From Patiria pectinifera (Eukaryota > Echinodermata > Asteroidea > Valvatida > Asterinidae): a stretch of DNA of 64,000 bases. Shown here in pieces: positions 16,230-58,766 of this stretch (within the stretch, counting starts at the first letter, position 1; each line of letters begins with the position of its first letter). The notes below the pieces were generated by a model. That model saw only the letters and a list, made by a program, of their open reading frames with translations, did no database searches and was not told the DNA's origin. The stretch is taken from positions 6,590,643 to 6,654,642 of the forward strand of contig CM057140.1 in the NCBI GenBank assembly GCA_029964075.1, written 5' to 3'. Both the position numbers and the translations under genes were made by a program.

Positions 16230-16729
16230 NNNNNNNNNNNNNNNNNNNNNNNNNNNNNNNNNNNNNNNNNNNNNNNNNNNNNNNNNNNNNNNNNNNNNNN
16301 NNNNNNNNNNNNNNNNNNNNNNNNNNNNNNNNNNNNNNNNNNNNNNNNNNNNNNNNNNNNNNNNNNNNNNNNNNNNNNNNNNNNNNNNNNNNNNNNNNNN
16401 NNNNNNNNNNNNNNNNNNNNNNNNNNNNNNNNNNNNNNNNNNNNNNNNNNNNNNNNNNNNNNNNNNNNNNNNNNNNNNNNNNNNNNNNNNNNNNNNNNNN
16501 NNNNNNNNNNNNNNNNNNNNNNNNNNNNNNNNNNNNNNNNNNNNNNNNNNNNNNNNNNNNNNNNNNNNNNNNNNNNNNNNNNNNNNNNNNNNNNNNNNNN
16601 NNNNNNNNNNNNNNNNNNNNNNNNNNNNNNNNNNNNNNNNNNNNNNNNNNNNNNNNNNNNNNNNNNNNNNNNNNNNNNNNNNNNNNNNNNNNNNNNNNNN
16701 NNNNNNNNNNNNNNNNNNNNNNNNNNNNN
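16230..16729. other. Assembly gap (500 N)
   Basis: A run of exactly 500 unknown bases, the usual size of an arbitrary scaffold gap. The gap lies at the right edge of block A copy 2, probably because the duplicated sequence could not be assembled through. Confidence 1.
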
Positions 16730-45497: not shown

Positions 45498-45612
45498 ATG
45501 ACTGAGAGAACACAAATCCCAGGCATTATGGAGGGAAAACAGCGAGTTGTTGAAATTGCAAGAGTTTCTGCGCTGACAGCTGCGGAATTCAATGTGGAGT
45601 ACTTCAAGAAAG
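45498..45612 (+). CDS. JmjC gene exon 1
   Basis: First coding exon: in-frame TAG at 45462-45464, then ATG at 45498 (weak context) and ATG at 45528 (A at -3, G at +4). It ends AAGAAAG|GTGTAT, phase 1, where the split codon G|AT restores Asp39. The protein segment with RVVEIARVSALTAAEFNVEY is the helix that precedes the P-V-I-I-T-D strand of cupin_8 proteins, which identifies this exon although it lies 3.6 kb upstream of the next. Confidence 0.85.
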
Positions 45613-48600
45613 GTGTATGATCAGTACTACAGTAGTCAGTAGGCCAAGTTGCATGACTTCTAAAAACTTTGGGAAACATACATGTATTGTAACATGACCA
45701 TGATGACATACCCAAATTTTAACCCAATGATATGAATGAGAGTATTGAGACTGGTCTGAAATTTTTTTAAAGTGTTTTCTCAGTAAAAATTTCAATATTT
45801 TCCCCTGCTAAAAATGGACTTTTTACTCAATTTTAGGGCGATCGTGTAGTGTCATGAGTGTAGGACCTAGCCCCACTAGTGTGGCCGTCGGTATGCTGCG
45901 CTGAACCTCTAGCCACACAACGTGGTCCGCACACTACTGAGGACGTTTTCATAAATTTTGCAGGGAATTTCTTACATATGGTTGTATTCTACGATGTCCC
46001 ATCTATCACTTCTGGGATGCTTGTATGTAATGATGTTCAATTTTCTGAGATATTCTTGAATCTTTCTGGAGCCCATATGCACTCGTGAAACGTCTGGTGA
46101 TGGCAGCCATTTTGAATGTGACAAGAGATGACCTCAAGCTGTGACGTCGTGTTTATGCAAATTGCTTGTCGAGCGAGGGCGCGAGTTGCAAATGCGACGG
46201 CTGTTTCCTGTGCCATGGATCCTGAATAGAGATCAGTGCACGTGGCCCCCAGACGATAAATGCATGGTACAGGAAACTCGCGCCCTCTCTCGACAAGTAA
46301 TTTGCATAAACGCGACGTCACAGCTTGAGGTCATCTCTTGTCACATTCAAAATGGCTGCCATCACCAGACGTTTCACGAGTGCATATGGGCTCCAGAAAG
46401 ATTCAAGAATATCTCGGAAAATTGAACATCATTACATCCAAGCATCCCAGAAGTGATAGATGGGACATCGTAGAATACAACCATATGTAAGAAATTCCCT
46501 GCAAAATTTATGAAAACGTCCTCAGTAGTAGTGCGCGGACCACGGTGTGTGGCTAGAGGTTCAGCGCAGCATACCGACGGCCACACTAGTGGGGCTATGT
46601 AGGACCCGGTTCCTAGTATAACTTAAGGGAACAAAATCCACTTTAAAATTATTAGATCGACCAAACTAGTTAGCGACATTCTCAAAATAGTCTGAGTAAC
46701 TAGTAGGACTCTACGTATCGCTTTTTAACATTTGGACATGGTCGGGCGATAGTAGAGTCAAAGATCGATGGCCTTATTGCGGTTACTATTACTTTTTTGA
46801 CCATTTTTACTCGTACCCCCAATCAAAATCGTCAGATTTCACCCCAAAACGGTCTTCAAACTGCCTTATGCGTACTCCTAGAACTATGAGGCTCGCCTCA
46901 TAGATCTAGAAGCCCGCAAAATTGCCTGCAGCACAAAACACTAATAAAGTACAAAAACATCCATCAAAATGGAGACATTTCCCACAGAACCGCTGCACAG
47001 TTTGCCCCCAAACTCCGTACTACACCTCATGACATAATTACAAAATATGCGCAGAACAAACATCGCTGGATTTTGTCGTTTTTTGGCTAAAATGATGAAA
47101 AATATGCCCTTTCCGCGCTGAGCCAACCTGACACTTGAAACGTGCACGCATATGATCGAGCGATGATTTTCGGTTCGCTCGGAGCGCGCCGCGGGGGGGG
47201 GTACGGTACAGCGAAATGATAGTATGCGCATGCGTACAAGTGCATGTACCGTACCACCCCCCCGCGGTGCGCTCCGAGCGAACCGAAAATCATCGCTCGA
47301 TAATAATTATGCGTGCACGTTTCAAGTGTCAGGTTGGCTCAGTGCGGAAAGGGCATATTTTTCATTATTTTAGCCAAAAAAACGACAAAAACCAGCGATG
47401 TTTGTTCTGCGCATATTTTGTGAGTATGTCATGAGGTGTAGTACGGAGTTTGGGGGCAAACTGTGCAGCGGTTCTGTGTGAAATGTCTCCATTTTGATGG
47501 ACGTTTTTGTACTTTATTAGTGTTTTGTGCTGCAGGCAATTTTGCGGGCTTCATAGTTCTAGGAGTACCTTATGCGTCCTTGTAGGCTTCAGTAGGAAGT
47601 GAAAATACAAATGGTGGTGGTTAGGTTTACATACCTTTGGGAAGAAAAGAGCAATTTTGGCAATTCGGGAAACATCCTTGTCACAAAAACTGTCACAAAT
47701 GCCTTGTTTGAGGCTGCCATTTTGAGTTCCAGAAAAGCATCAGACAGACCAATCACAGGGCACTTAAATTAAATGGTCACCTGGATTGGTGACCAATCAA
47801 AGTGCCCCACGAGTGTGATTGGTCAGGTGACAAATCAAAGTGATCTGTGATTGGTCTGTCTGATGCTTGCCAGGAAACAGTCTAGCCAGCCTTGCACCAG
47901 TCTACTTTTCCTGAATTCAAAATGGCAGCCTCAAACAAGGCATGTGTGACAAAGATATTTCCCGAATTGAAGGTGAAATTTCTCTTTCTTCCCAATATGT
48001 ATGCCTAACCACCACCATTTGTATTTTCACGTCCCACTGAAGCCTACAGGGGCACGTAAGGCAGTTTGAAGACCATTTTGGGGGTGAAATCTGACGAGTT
48101 TGATTGGGGGTACAAGTGAAAATGGTAAAAAAAATTTATTAGTAACCGCAATCGAGCCATCGATCTCGGATTCTACTATCGCCCGACCATGTCCAAATGT
48201 TAAAAAAGCGATCCATAGAGTCCTAGTAACTCGGACTACTCAATAGGTATGTCAAATAATTGTCATGCTTCATAGATAGAGGGCAAGGTTTTGATTTTTT
48301 GAGGGAAATTTTTGGGGTAAAATGATGATGGGACTGAGAAGCATTTCCAATTTTGTTAGGAAATACTTAGAAAATTTTCTTGACTCTCCATCATGTCCAT
48401 AGACTTTGTTCACAACCGCTGAAGTGGTGTCAGGTCGCAACATTTTGCCCGGAAAAAGTTGTGATGGCCAGATGTGGGAGTCTTTCCAAGTTGCATAAGG
48501 CTGCTTAGCATGTTTAGCGGAAGTTAGCCTTTAGGCTTAGCTCTAGCCTCTACTGTACTGAGTGGAGCGCTGGAACTACACCCCCTCCATACAAGCGCTC

Positions 48601-51600
48601 CATCGAATAGGCACACTTTGATGACTGGTACATGGTACGCATTTTGTGCATACCCTCGCGAGGACAAAAGGCCCTCTCCCCCCTCTCAACCCCCCCCCCC
48701 CCAAAAAAAAACGATAAAAAGAATACAAATGAGACAGACACTTACTCTGGAATCTGCACATTCATAAAATTCCATTAGACCTCTTAAATTGTTTCCAAAA
48801 AGCGGTAATTTAAAAAACAAAAACAAAAAATAGTCTGATATTGATAAATCTACCACAATTAAATGTCTCCCAAGTTGTTCCATCCGTTGAGGGCGTGAGT
48901 GGTGTCAGCGTTGTCGAACGCAGAAAAACAAGTCTCGCTATATCAAGGACTGTTTCGTGTAGTGATATGTGCCCCGTGCCGTATGACAGTTGGGCTTTTG
49001 GCGCAGGGCTCAAAAATTGAAAACCCCTTTATCAATCCAGTTTTGGATTGGTAAAGGGCAAAAATTTGGAATATTTAAAGTCATTGAGGTTATACGGTCG
49101 AAAGAATGGAAGACATGACACTGCATTCTTAAAACCCAGAGGACATGTATCATTACGTTAGCGTACATTTATGTTTTTTTTCAACAGATGTTCCAGTCAT
49201 TATAACTGATGTGGCTAGTAAGTGGCCAGCTGCTGGATGGACCCTTGAGTCCCTCAAGGAAAGAGCTGGTCATAATAAAGCATTCATCAGACAAAATACA
49301 AGCAAGCAAGACTACAAGGTACAAACATGGATATAGGGGTGCTGTGGTCCAATGGTTACGCTGTTCAAATCGTGTGCCATGGTACATGGGTTCGAATCCT
49401 GACCATGGGAACATGGTGCTTGTGCTCTTGAGCAAGGCACTTTACCATTATTGCTTCGTCCTTCGGATGGGACGTAAAGCCGTAGGTACTGTGTGTTGTG
49501 TAATGCACGTTAAAGAACCCAGTAACACTCATCACTAAGAGAAGGCGTTTGCCTTGGTGTTTCTGGTAGTGGTTGCAATATGCGCCGCAGCACCTTGTAA
49601 ACCCTTATAAGGTGCTACATAATGGGGCTCATATTTCTCATAAACTTTATTTACCTTTCTTTAGTAATAGACATATCTCCAACGCCTTGAGTACATGTAC
49701 CTAATAGTTGGTAGATACGTGCGCTATATAAGACTCCGATATTTTTATTATTATATTTGATAAACCTTTCTGACATGTAGATCAACACTGGGTATGGATG
49801 ACAAACCATGCAATTTATGCATAAGTAGAATTTTTAAGTTTTGAATTAACCAGTCAAATGGCTTCTTTCATTTCTTTTTTGTAATCATTTAATATGTGGG
49901 TGGCACTAGCTTATTGAAACCAAGGACTCCTCAAAAGCACCCTAGGCACTGTAGTTTGCAACCCTGAAGAAACCTGTAGAGAGAAGACAATGAGAAGTAA
50001 TTTCAGCTTTAGAAAACCCCAGAAGAATATTCTGGGAAAAACCCACGAAATCAGGCAGGGACTGAAAACCCAATCCACATGTTGGCCCAGGCAGGATTCG
50101 AACCTGGGTCACAGCGGTAGAAGGCGAGGAAAGTACCGCTACGCCAACCTGACTCCCCCCCCCCTACAAAAAATGGAACAAATGAACTTGGGATTTCTTT
50201 CAGGGGAGCAGTCATAGAGTAGACAGAGAAGAATGAATGCAATTAGTTGTGAGAGTGTGTTAATCAAATTTGATTGGCTTTTAAAGGGAATATACAACAT
50301 TTGCAAACATCGAAAAATAAAACTACCAAGTTTTTACGAAATACCTTACTAGGATGTTGGTAAATGACAGTCTCAAGCATCTTGTAAAATTATGGCACCT
50401 GGTGTGAAGTCATTTTCAAGAAAATGGTATTTTTGTATACATTTCCAACGGTGGTCGGCCGACCAGCGTTGGAAAAACCTAACTATTTTTCAACTACTGC
50501 TCCAAGTTAACCATTTTTTCAGTCCAAATTTTGTTTGCTATTGGTTACATGTTTCATGAACGGGTGCAGGCCAGCTAGACTGGTTCCCGTGTCTTACAAT
50601 TTTCCATCATCTATAAATTGATCCATTTTATCTTTTGTGGAGTCAGGGAACCAGACTACTTAAACATGTTTGTTTTTCTTGGTTTTTCCAACCTTTTCGA
50701 ACACAAAACTTCAAAAATGTCAGGGTAACAATATTTGATCTATATATACTAACCCCTCAAAAAGTTCATTTCTGAAAAATACATCAAAAACCAATGATGT
50801 ACATTCCCTTTAATGATGACGTTGCAGAACTCCTGCTTCATTTTACTGTTTCTTGGCTTTGAATAAGTTGGCAGAATTCCTATTTTATTTCAATGTGTAG
50901 TTTCTCAAAACTTGTGCTTTAGAATTACATCAAACTTAACACAAATAGAGAGATTTTTTTAACTTTTAGCTTCTGTAACATTGGTGTTGCTAGCATGCTT
51001 GTAGATACTTGTATATTTGTTTATAAATGGGATATTCTGGGTAATAAACTGCAGTATATTCTGCACATGTTTTGTTTGATCATGAATCAGGTGGGTAAAG
51101 CATACACCATCCGTGAGAGCACACTCAGAGAGTACATCAATGATTTGGACGAAGACAACAGCCGTTCCAGGAATTCTTATCTTGCTGTGCAGAACATCAA
51201 GAGCACATTTCCTGAATTAGAGGTATTACGATCAATTACAAACTCAAGAATGCAAGTTTCCTCTTCTGTCTTCTGATGGGCTCAATTGGCTCTGAGTTCT
51301 GACTGTGTCGTATGCCTGTACCTGTATATGTCATAGACGCAAGAACCATGAATGTTTTGAGAGATTATTTTGTCACTGCCTGCAGTTAAAACAATGTTTG
51401 CAATGTTTAGCCAGTTTTCAAATGACCAGAGCAAACTCTTAAAAGACTGGAACCATCCAGTATTAAACTACAGTTAACTCCAGCTAAGTCGGCACTATCG
51501 AGATTGAAGAATTTGTGACCACTTACGCGAATGCCGATCTGCTGTAAGTCGTCATTTTGCTGACTTACATGAATGGCCTTTTGCACACATGATTCATTGC

Positions 51601-54600
51601 ACTAATTGGCTTCGATTTACCCTGGATTATCTCTTTATTGCTTGAGTTGAATCCAGCAAACTTATCCTCGAATTGTATCATCACATTTGGGTATTGATAG
51701 TGGAGACCATGATACATATAATGTACGTGCACAGTAGTCTGGTATATACCACGCACGCATTGACTGCAGCAGTAGTCATTCAATAAGACGACCCCCCAAA
51801 GTGGACAGAGTGCATGCGTACAGCCTAGAGGGGGTACTGGTATTGATATGCTCACGATACATATGCGATGTATGCAGTAAGACACCCTATTTTGACATTG
51901 ATAGATGCAGCGATCACGGGCCGTGTGAAACCACTTTTCAACTCGACACTTTGCCAACCGCAGTACAGGAAGTCGATGCCAATGTGTGATTTGTTGAATG
52001 CTGACTTATACACAAAGGATTTAGTAATGCTTCGTATGGAAAGGGGACCGAGAGTAACACGACGACTTGAGCGAAATGGCGACTAATAAAATCCGATTTA
52101 GAAATAGAAAATTCAATGGAAATGCATTACGGACAATCAGGACTTTAGTCAGACGGCCGACTTGAGTGATTTGACGAGTTGTACGATGTCGGTTTAGCCG
52201 GAGTTTACTGTATAACTTTGTGTTCTATTTATTTCTCGGTCATTAAATGCTGTTGGAGTTTCTATCAACGGTAGATTTTTGAGATCCTTTTCCATTGTTT
52301 GCCTTATATCTAAGCATGCACCCTTTAACTAAAACACGATGTAAACAGTTGAAAAGACCGGTGTGTTTGCTGCCACCAATGTCTTAAAAGTCTCCTATTA
52401 GTAAAGTTTATGAAATACTTTTGTTTTCCTCAGGCTGATGTTCCAATGCCAGACTACGTTGGTAAGATCCACATGGGACCCTACCTGTGGATAGCTGTCA
52501 AGGGCCATTATGGTAAAGACAACATATGCAGGCTTCATAAACCTTAGTCCTAACCCTGCTGCAATGAAGTTGCTAGCCTTTTGCCCAGGCCATCGTGGCT
52601 TAGAGCGGCGGAGTTGCGAAGACCCGAAGTGACTGGAGCGAAGATTAAGTCAGCACGCACGAGTGGCAAGCCATGGGGCTTTTTACAACTTGATTTTGTT
52701 GAATTATTCATAGTTTCTATGCAAATAAGAAGCGTGCTGAAGGTTAACCAATCACAATTTTTCATTTGTAAAATGGATTAAAACGAAGGACATTACTTCT
52801 AATAGTAGATGTGAGGTGCTGGCACTTTCATTTCATAGTGAAAAAAACCCCAGGAAATTGTCACCAGGGGATGGCCCCAAGCTGCCCCCTGCCCAACCAC
52901 CTAGAAGCGAACCTCAAATCAACAACCAACACAGATTGTGTCCTATTGGTTATGGTTGGATTAATTAGGATTATGGGTTCATTCAGTTCGTTTGGAGGAA
53001 ACAGTTGTGCATGGTGATGAAAAATCACAAATGTTCCACAAACAGCAGATACAGGATGACCCTCCTGCCCCCCAAGTCAACCCTGAAACGTTTGGCTTTT
53101 TTGAAAAATGTGATACGTGAATTGTTACGTTTTGGGTATCAGATTAAAGCTGAGAGTTTTTTATTTCAGATACTGAAAAAAATAATGAAAACGGCACACT
53201 GGGTTGCTGAGAAAATGCCAATTTTGTAAAAAAAGGTAATTGTTTTCATCCGTTCCAAAAGTGCTTCAAACAGTGAAACATGTTACTGTAAGTCCACTGT
53301 GCAATTGTCTCTCATTTGTGTAGTTTCTTTCATATTTTGACATATATATGATGCTGAAAAGGTTTAAAAATAGTACTAAAAAGGATGAGATACCTGTTCA
53401 GGTGGAAGATAAAAGGTATTTCCATCAAATTAATTTGTACTCTTGTCATATTATGTGCCGTGTTGTTTGGCAAATAGGTACAGTGAAAATACCTTAACTG
53501 TGGTAATGCCATTGGAATCTTTCCATATTTGGCATTTTCTCAGCAACCCAATGTGCTGTTTTTATGATTTTTTCCAGTATTGAAAAAAAGCACCTTTAGC
53601 TTTAATCTGATATCCAAAACATAAAAATTCACCCATCAAGTTTTTGAAAAAAGCCAAATCTTCAAGGTTGCATTTTAGGGGGTCACCCTGTACATATATT
53701 CACAAATTATAACTGTTTACACAAAAACAAATACTTATTTTACAATACTTGCACATGTATACATTTTTTGATGAAAAGACTAATATCTAAAATGTTCAAT
53801 TTCTGTTGATTGTTTGCAGAGTACTGCCACTTTGATCCTGACGATGGGCTATTAGTTGTCTTGAGTGGGAGGAAAAAGGTCCAATTATATGGCTGTAATC
53901 CCATGCCCCTCTACCCAAACCCACTGGGGTCAAAAGGTCGTACCATTCAGGCCCAAGTCAACTGTGAGGATCCTGATCTGGAGAGGCATCCATTGTTTGC
54001 ATTAGCTACATGTTATCAAGGGGAACTTGGTCCTGGAGAAATGTGAGTCAATCTAGTCTTCCCAAAGAGTGATCACATAATGGAGCTAAGTTACACATCA
54101 TTTACATTGTAACCAAATAGCCTGAAATTTATGAATGTTATTAAACTGCGTTATTTACCATCATGACAATGTGGAAATCACAGATATTTTCTTTGACTGT
54201 AACTCAGTGGTGAGATTCAGGGTAAGGTGATTGTAGTGTGATGTGTCTTACTCAGGAATGAGCCTTGTGAGTAGCCAATTCCAGGTGGAATCCTTGAACT
54301 GAAAACTCAACAATTGGCCTGTTGATAAAGACACTGTGATGGTGTCGCAAGCTCTTGATACGAGCTCTGTAACCAAAGTCTTAAAAAGGTATCTTTTATT
54401 TGATTGATATAATAATGGGACAGAAAATGAACTTTGATGCTCAACATATGGCCAGTTCTTGTAAAGGTTAAGCATTCTAGACCTCAAGATCCCACATACT
54501 TTGAGGACACATGAACATTGCCCACATCCTCTATGCAGGCTAGTAAAGTTCGTGATATGGATAGCTCAGGGGATAAATGAAGAATATGAGTTGCAATGAA

Positions 54601-58599: not shown

Positions 58600-58618
58600 C
58601 TTAATTCCTTCCTCCATG

Positions 58619-58766
58619 GTCCGAGTAACTTGGACCCAACTTATCGCCTTTTTTTAACATTTGGACATGGTCTGGCGATATCGCCAGACCATGGAGGAAT
58701 GGCCAGACCATGTCCAAATGTTAAAAAAGGCGATAAGTTGAGTCCAAGTTACTCGGACTAACCCCA
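58619..58766. mobile_element. Near-perfect 148-bp palindrome, short relative of 46688-48245
   Basis: Left GGTCCGAGTAACTTGGAC and TTTTTAACATTTGGACATGG face their complements on the right around an ATATCGCCAGACCATGGAGG centre. The arm sequence matches the outer ends of the long palindrome in JmjC intron 1. Confidence 0.85.

Follow-up and report, generated by a model that had tools for sequence, protein, structure and literature searches.

The window analysed here, a stretch of 64,000 nucleotides of the Patiria pectinifera genome, carries three foldback elements, FB1, FB2 and FB3, which we interpret as related non-autonomous cut-and-paste DNA transposons that are moved in trans and most likely belong to the MULE superfamily (probability about 0.65). 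The elements are almost all arm and without cargo, and the transposase that mobilises them would cut the two strands of its target 9 bp apart, at times 10 bp; we infer it to be most likely Mutator-like. They are of an ordinary kind, non-autonomous foldback transposons, and no published description of the three families was found in the literature searched, which covered few subscription papers.

The elements of the window and their families

FB1 and FB2 had been described in the earlier note as near-complete palindromes with perfect 9-bp flanking repeats, and the coordinates proved exact and the flanks identical on checking. FB1 (45868-46597) has inverted arm pieces of 255 nt at 98% and 74 nt at 96% identity, with TGTAGGACC on either side, and FB2 (46873-47567) has pieces of 176 nt at 97%, 74 nt at 97% and 49 nt at 96%, with CCTTATGCG on either side, so that each is enclosed in a perfect 9-bp duplication. 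A third palindrome, FB3, spans 46688-48238 with outer arms 87% alike, and FB2 lies in its left arm. The same note had claimed that the right arm of this larger palindrome preserves the site without the insert, which is what we see: CCTTACGTG stands there in place of CCTTATGCG with 7 of 9 bases kept, and the sequence around it runs on uninterrupted. One molecule holds the older host palindrome FB3, the insert FB2 and the empty site, and the order of nesting is FB3 first and FB2 into FB3 later. The features are as follows (window positions; no strand is assigned unless given).

45528-45612, plus strand: host JmjC/Cupin_8 gene, probable first coding exon with its end placed approximately (sequence reading and weak match across the join)
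45859-45867: left 9-bp target duplication of FB1, TGTAGGACC (sequence)
45868-46597: FB1, foldback element of 730 bp with ends TAGCCCCACTAGTGTGGCCG (inverted repeats and genome copies)
46598-46606: right 9-bp target duplication of FB1 (sequence)
46688-46872: outer part of the left arm of FB3, the older foldback, interrupted by FB2 (arm 46688-46868 matches 48238-48057 at 87%)
46864-46872: left 9-bp target duplication of FB2, CCTTATGCG, inside FB3 (sequence)
46873-47567: FB2, foldback element of 695 bp with ends TACTCCTAGAACTATGAGGC (inverted repeats and genome copies)
47568-47576: right 9-bp target duplication of FB2 (sequence)
47577-48238: remainder of FB3, with inner left arm, centre and right arm (family search and arm match)
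48053-48061, minus strand: site in the right arm of FB3 that corresponds to the FB2 target and has no insert, CCTTACGTG (sequence)
49190-49333, plus strand: probable second exon of the host gene, both limits approximate (open stretch, without a Pfam match alone)
53810-54043, plus strand: exon with Cupin_8/JmjC domain (PF13621, E 4.2e-8; JMJD5 chains)
58617-58760: degenerate small FB3-type palindrome of 144 bp, without clear target duplication (sequence)

Inverted repeats make up nearly the whole of FB1, FB2 and FB3, as in foldback elements generally, and the elements are short, noncoding, multi-copy and flanked by target duplications, as MITEs are. The tandem subrepeats of FB-type elements were not found in the arms: no tandem array appeared at score 30 between 45800 and 48300, and a single 20-nt direct pair occurs in 45500-48600. 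There is no open reading frame of at least 150 aa in 45-48.3 kb. The family end of FB3, TAGTCCGAGTAACTAGGACTC, is present with differences as its reverse complement at 48238, and no clear target duplication was found around this copy. Two small palindromes of the window, of FB3 or FB5 type, are degenerate, and neither has a clear duplication. A further observation concerns the arms of FB1 and FB3, in which CAAAATGGC is followed by TGCC or AGCC (window 46348-46360 and 47918-47930, and also in the opposite arms); we take this motif to resemble a YY1 site, and it might serve the arms as a promoter element.

The claim that the elements lie in one intron received support short of proof. An intronic position is likely given the downstream Cupin_8/JmjC exon and a weak match over the exon join, obtained when the stretches at about 45528-45612 and about 49190-49333 were joined (GH14974p, E 0.008). 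Elsewhere in the window, two open stretches lie on the minus strand at 1150-2109, one of which matches DUF7869 (PF25273, E 4.8e-16) and is perhaps transposon-derived, and positions 16230-16729 are 500 N in a row, an assembly gap or a withheld stretch.

Searching the terminal sequences against the source genome (one assembly, 613.5 Mb in 1020 contigs), as had been suggested, returned many copies, with 9-bp duplications in most of those checked. The complete counts of the outer 20-21 bases at no more than one mismatch were 828 ends for FB1 (412+416), 1237 for FB2 (639+598) and 449 for FB3 (220+229), with 0 for the reversed-pattern control, while searches with the element bodies give lower bounds (40 scored of 600, 859 and 943 candidates for FB1, FB2 and FB3, respectively). 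FB1 and FB2 each recur genome-wide between other flanks and with their own duplications, which places the observation beyond chance and bears out their earlier assignment to two different families, and the larger palindrome FB3 is a third transposon family.

Counting repeats of 8-10 bp and allowing one mismatch, target duplications flank 14 of 18 FB1 copies and 17 of 20 FB2 copies, in samples taken mostly in body-score order before the flanks were seen; old or divergent copies are under-represented. The FB2 sample comprises 19 copies in rank order (one with a wider stretch) and L064, picked after five were skipped; the FB1 count omits L035, which holds two elements, and L038, with a broken left end, and window copies are excluded. 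Two of the FB2 copies scored as misses come close: L058 has a perfect 9-bp duplication once its left end is set at 86, and in L060 the duplication is two bases off, by eye. The FB1 copies L037 and L043 have outer flanks in common and are hence not independent; in both, the right end is present twice, with another copy of 37 bp outside the first, and the match to the left flank is found beyond this second copy. For FB3, 20 places were fetched, and seven copies picked for both arms or a clear end were checked together with the window copy. Five of these eight have 9-bp duplications, perfect in L065, L082 and L083 and matching at 8 of 9 bases in L068 and L079; L066 has a 9-bp match eight bases away from its end, and none was found for the one-ended L067 or the window copy. 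FB1 and FB2 fall within the 8-11 bp range of MULEs and outside the 7-8 bp of the P superfamily (Galileo), since 9 bp prevails.

The ends of FB1 (TAGCCCCACTA), FB2 (TACTCCTAGAA) and FB3 (TAGTCCGAGTA) all fit TASYCCBASWA by inspection, a pattern derived from these same three ends, so that the fit is no test. A short imperfect palindrome occupies the first 20 bases of FB1 (bases 3-18, self-pairing at 7 of 8 positions, reached by 0.012 of shuffles) and FB3 (bases 2-20, 8 of 9, 0.003). From the common pattern and these palindromes we judge that FB1, FB2 and FB3 probably form one related group. The end palindrome of FB2 (6/8, shuffle share 0.065) does not stand out, nor does that of FB6 (0.18). FB5, with end TAGTCCGAAAATTTGGGACTC, and FB6, with end TAGCCCCAAATGTGGCC, are further families with a similar terminal pattern (window 44679; L113, L114 and L059), and bases 2-20 of FB5 self-pair at 8 of 9 positions (0.002 of shuffles).

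Arm matching within copies

The two arms of a copy, each about 300 bp long in keeping with the long terminal inverted repeats of MULEs, are 94.3-99.7% alike within FB1 and FB2 copies (18 and 20, respectively). Median identity within FB2 copies is 97.6%, against 92.3% between copies; the corresponding values are 97.8% against 97.3% for FB1 (18 copies) and 89.2% against 86.9% for FB3 (6 copies). Arms that are closer within than between copies are not explained by mere drift since the palindrome first formed. Arms were labelled left and right by genome strand and not by element orientation, which makes same-arm and cross-arm values inseparable and leaves the following concordance test unaffected.

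The distribution of variants in FB2 carries most of the argument. States present in at least three copies occur on both arms in 186 of 208 cells over 35 columns, when shuffled partners gave a mean of 0.19 and a maximum of 0.40, whereas private states are confined to a single arm in 82 of 83 cases. The copies that have shared states in common fall into several groups with overlap, which seems to call for more than a single arm-matching event. Of the 22 cases with states found in exactly two copies, only 4 have the state on both arms; the one-arm cases may be recurrent mutations and do not help the case for arm matching. Concordance is weaker in FB1 (13 of 32 cells in 7 columns, shuffled maximum 0.30; private states on both arms in 5 of 67), and in FB3 it lies within the shuffles (16 of 44, shuffles up to 0.43). 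An arm has its own partner as its nearest arm in 8 of 40 cases in FB2, 4 of 36 in FB1 and 3 of 12 in FB3. We infer, chiefly from FB2, that the two arms are made to match as long as a lineage keeps moving, and that each collects its own mutations once a copy is resident. Matching in the moving lineage could proceed by template switching, or else one arm could be converted from the other across the hairpin, when an excision is repaired or the element re-inserts; in the resident element the arms would then drift apart.

Small palindromes and insertions at resident ends

Facing pairs of ends less than 4 kb apart were collected from the first 100 exact ends listed for each family (contigs C1-C5 for FB1, C1-C3 for FB2 and C1-C11 for FB3), and among these listed ends they fall into two main size classes. 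Pairs of 400-850 bp number 19 for FB1, 20 for FB2 and 3 for FB3, and pairs of at most 150 bp account for 9 of 31, 9 of 30 and 8 of 12, respectively, spanning 44-131 bp; one pair measures 151-399 bp and four exceed 850 bp. Six small copies chosen for their size, four of FB1 and two of FB2 (L105-L108, L115 and L116), all have a 9-bp duplication, which is perfect in four of them and has a single mismatch in the other two. Three of them are perfect palindromes without a loop (L106, 106 bp; L108, 86 bp; L116, 48 bp), L115 measures 44 bp with a 4-base centre, and L105 and L107 are less regular. A small FB1-like copy met by chance (L092, 79 bp as bounded) is degenerate, its flanks share ATTTAGGTGT at a shifted position, and it was counted neither way.

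The FB2 copies, sampled before their flanks were seen, revealed a second peculiarity: 3 of 20 lie inside the last 12-25 bases of an FB1 or FB3 end. Judged by the offset from the flanks, the duplication falls on bases 17-25 of FB1 in L051 and on bases 12-20 of FB3 in L063 and L064, the guests of the latter two being 97% alike and perhaps not fully independent, although their host ends differ in sequence. By hand arithmetic, the counted FB1 and FB3 ends at 30 bases each make up about 38 kb, or 0.006% of the genome, so that 3 of 20 is far above an even spread. L058 was left out of this count since its apparent other end is its own. Similar arrangements include an FB1 end 16 bases within an FB2 end (L093), an FB2 duplication adjoining an FB5 end (L059), two FB2 guests 83% alike with the identical duplication GCCGTCGGT at bases 17-25 of FB1 (L111 and L112) and guests from other families at offset 24 (L113 and L114); L110-L114 come from a biased pattern search that was not used for frequency, and in L110 and L114 only one side of the guest is seen. 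None of the 18 FB1 copies lies inside another family's end in this way, and the FB2 copy of the window, deep in an FB3 arm, runs counter to end targeting. On contigs C1 and C2, taking exact ends, 6 of 33 FB1 lie within 1 kb of FB2 (mean 0.107 and maximum 2 in 2000 random placements); the associations of FB1 with FB3 (1 of 33, random mean 0.032) and of FB3 with FB2 (1 of 23, mean 0.056) are weak.

Taken together, the nested and the small copies suggest, tentatively and at somewhat less than even odds, that the insertion machinery reads the ends of resident siblings and inserts at a fixed distance inside them across families (bases 16-25 of FB1, 12-20 of FB3), and that hairpins are shaved to as little as 44 bp, some without a loop and with duplications intact, an end of about 20 bases being all that the transposase needs. 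Steering of some insertions to resident ends might be effected by transposase bound there. Nesting at the same offset could also reflect a single amplified composite of host and guest, a possibility we consider unlikely. It has a parallel in rice, where 107 MULEs are described that carry one MITE at the same position, complete or in part (PMC3903597), and the 97% identity of the L110 and L111 guests over 297 bases, like that of the L063 and L064 guests, would agree with it. However, the L111 and L112 guests are only 83% alike, the host in L051 is merely about 75 bp long, and the guests at offset 24 in L113 and L114 belong to other families, all of which speaks for repeated insertion. As for the palindromes of 44-131 bp, they would be separate amplifying MITE families on a reading that is somewhat less improbable, though still doubtful: six of the eight small FB3 pairs among the listed ends bunch at 114-122 bp, and a 9-bp duplication, with no more than one mismatch, flanks each of the six small FB1 and FB2 copies. 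A miniature master should nevertheless yield repeated sizes, and the sizes are distinct in 9 of 9 small pairs for FB1, 8 of 9 for FB2 and 8 of 8 for FB3 among the listed ends. Because the sizes are nearly all different, we think that small copies arise one by one as remnants of long copies, each through loss of the distal part of its hairpin, until they are too short to fold out.

Superfamily and source of the transposase

The earlier suggestion of a Mutator-like origin stands as far as the lengths of duplications and arms are concerned, on which grounds MULE is the likeliest superfamily, as yet unproven; membership itself was not established, and FB ends are not the termini of the MULE matches read. 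The MULE transposase domain has 30 matches in the genome, and none of the 16 that were read, eight of them in loci of only 3.3 kb and one near a contig end (L091), has the ends of FB1, FB2 or FB3 as its termini. Around the same 16 matches, 20-bp inverted ends accompanied by 8-10-bp duplications turned up in one locus only, L089, where the hits are rich in A/T and look like chance. FB2 copies stand beside a MULE in L085, which also has a 65-base FB3 match, and in L086; they were rejected as MULE termini, being separate palindromes, truncated or rearranged, with their own duplication by eye. No copy with a transposase between FB ends was found. Among the first 100 listed ends, the longest facing FB1 pair below 4 kb, at 2759 bp, was considered as an autonomous copy and turned out to be an FB1 that owes most of its length to another foldback inside it, with arms of about 684 bp; further long pairs measure 1344 and 1920 bp. 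A foldback with arms of about 684 bp (86% alike) occupies L109:827-2540, inside an FB1 copy with a 9-bp duplication by eye. MULE matches cluster at G000:C697, with three in a 45-kb contig, and at G000:C19:6.73-6.75 Mb, with four within 14 kb. One MULE-domain locus, L086:3041-6906 (C3:9.27 Mb), has inverted ends of 16-bp tandem repeats (CTCGTACCTTGGACAA) that are unrelated to the FB ends and reminiscent of Muta1 or Rehavkus.

Two alternatives bear on the overall interpretation. Long palindromes are known assembly hazards and only one assembly was examined here, so the palindromes might have formed in place, by inverted duplication or assembly fold-over, with flanking repeats that are accidental. 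We give this next to no credence: the same sequences occur at many places with different flanks and their own duplications, and the arms differ by 0.3-5.7% within the FB1 and FB2 copies compared, when an exact fold-over would give no difference. The other alternative keeps the elements as described and has them moved by another superfamily with duplications of about 9 bp, of Merlin/IS1595 type or undescribed, which is rather improbable in our estimation. Merlin elements make 8-9-bp duplications, and their type of transposase domain (PF12762) has 16 matches in the genome; the 16 MULE matches read of 30, none of which has FB ends as its own termini, also leave room for such a source. Against it, foldback-like elements that have MULE transposases, among them Tm1 (PMC3169594) and Muta1 (PMC5225508), are on record with long inverted arms and 9-bp duplications. 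MULEs have duplications of 8-11 bp and often, not always, long inverted repeats (PMC6446971). A Mutator-like transposase acting in trans thus remains our preferred reading.

FB/NOF is a Drosophila foldback with long inverted repeats, and the sea-urchin TU elements, likened to the FB families by description alone, are foldback elements of an echinoderm with a duplication of 8 bp. TU is cited in the work on Tetris (PMC4079207). Tetris of Drosophila likewise has long inverted repeats without coding cargo, 8-10-bp duplications and no autonomous copy found, but its TIR-220 repeats form arrays (PMC4079207), whereas the FB arms are without tandem units. Tm1, a Mutator/Foldback family of root-knot nematodes, resembles the FB families in its mostly 9-bp duplications, foldback-like repeats and MITE-like members, and the two repeats of one element average 93% identity; unlike them, it has a variable number of motifs of about 14 bp in its repeats and a known copy with MULE transposase (PMC3169594), whereas the FB region of the window has no tandem units and no transposase copy was found. 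Galileo, of the P superfamily, has a foldback-like shape, sequence exchange among copies and chimeric copies (PMC3573991, PMC4168063), but duplications of 7-8 bp (PMC4168063). MuTAnT of Medicago is a foldback MITE that belongs to a MULE and targets TA microsatellites (PMC4486113), whereas some FB insertions lie inside sibling ends. Muta1 of Aedes has 8-9-bp duplications, a short palindromic terminal motif and many non-autonomous derivatives, as the FB families do, but also subterminal tandem repeats and a known active transposase; its 12-bp tandem units are comparable to the 16-bp repeats of L086 (PMC5225508).

How foldbacks keep two matching arms is an old question, and the variant pattern of FB2 appears to date the matching to the moving lineage and not to resident copies. 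The copies of 44 and 48 bp, if they were moved as such, raise the question of how little end sequence suffices for mobility, and the recurring nesting near element ends offers a testable case of transposons targeting their own relatives. What lifts FB1, FB2 and FB3 above a catalogue entry is when their arms are matched, how small their palindromes can be and how they nest at ends.
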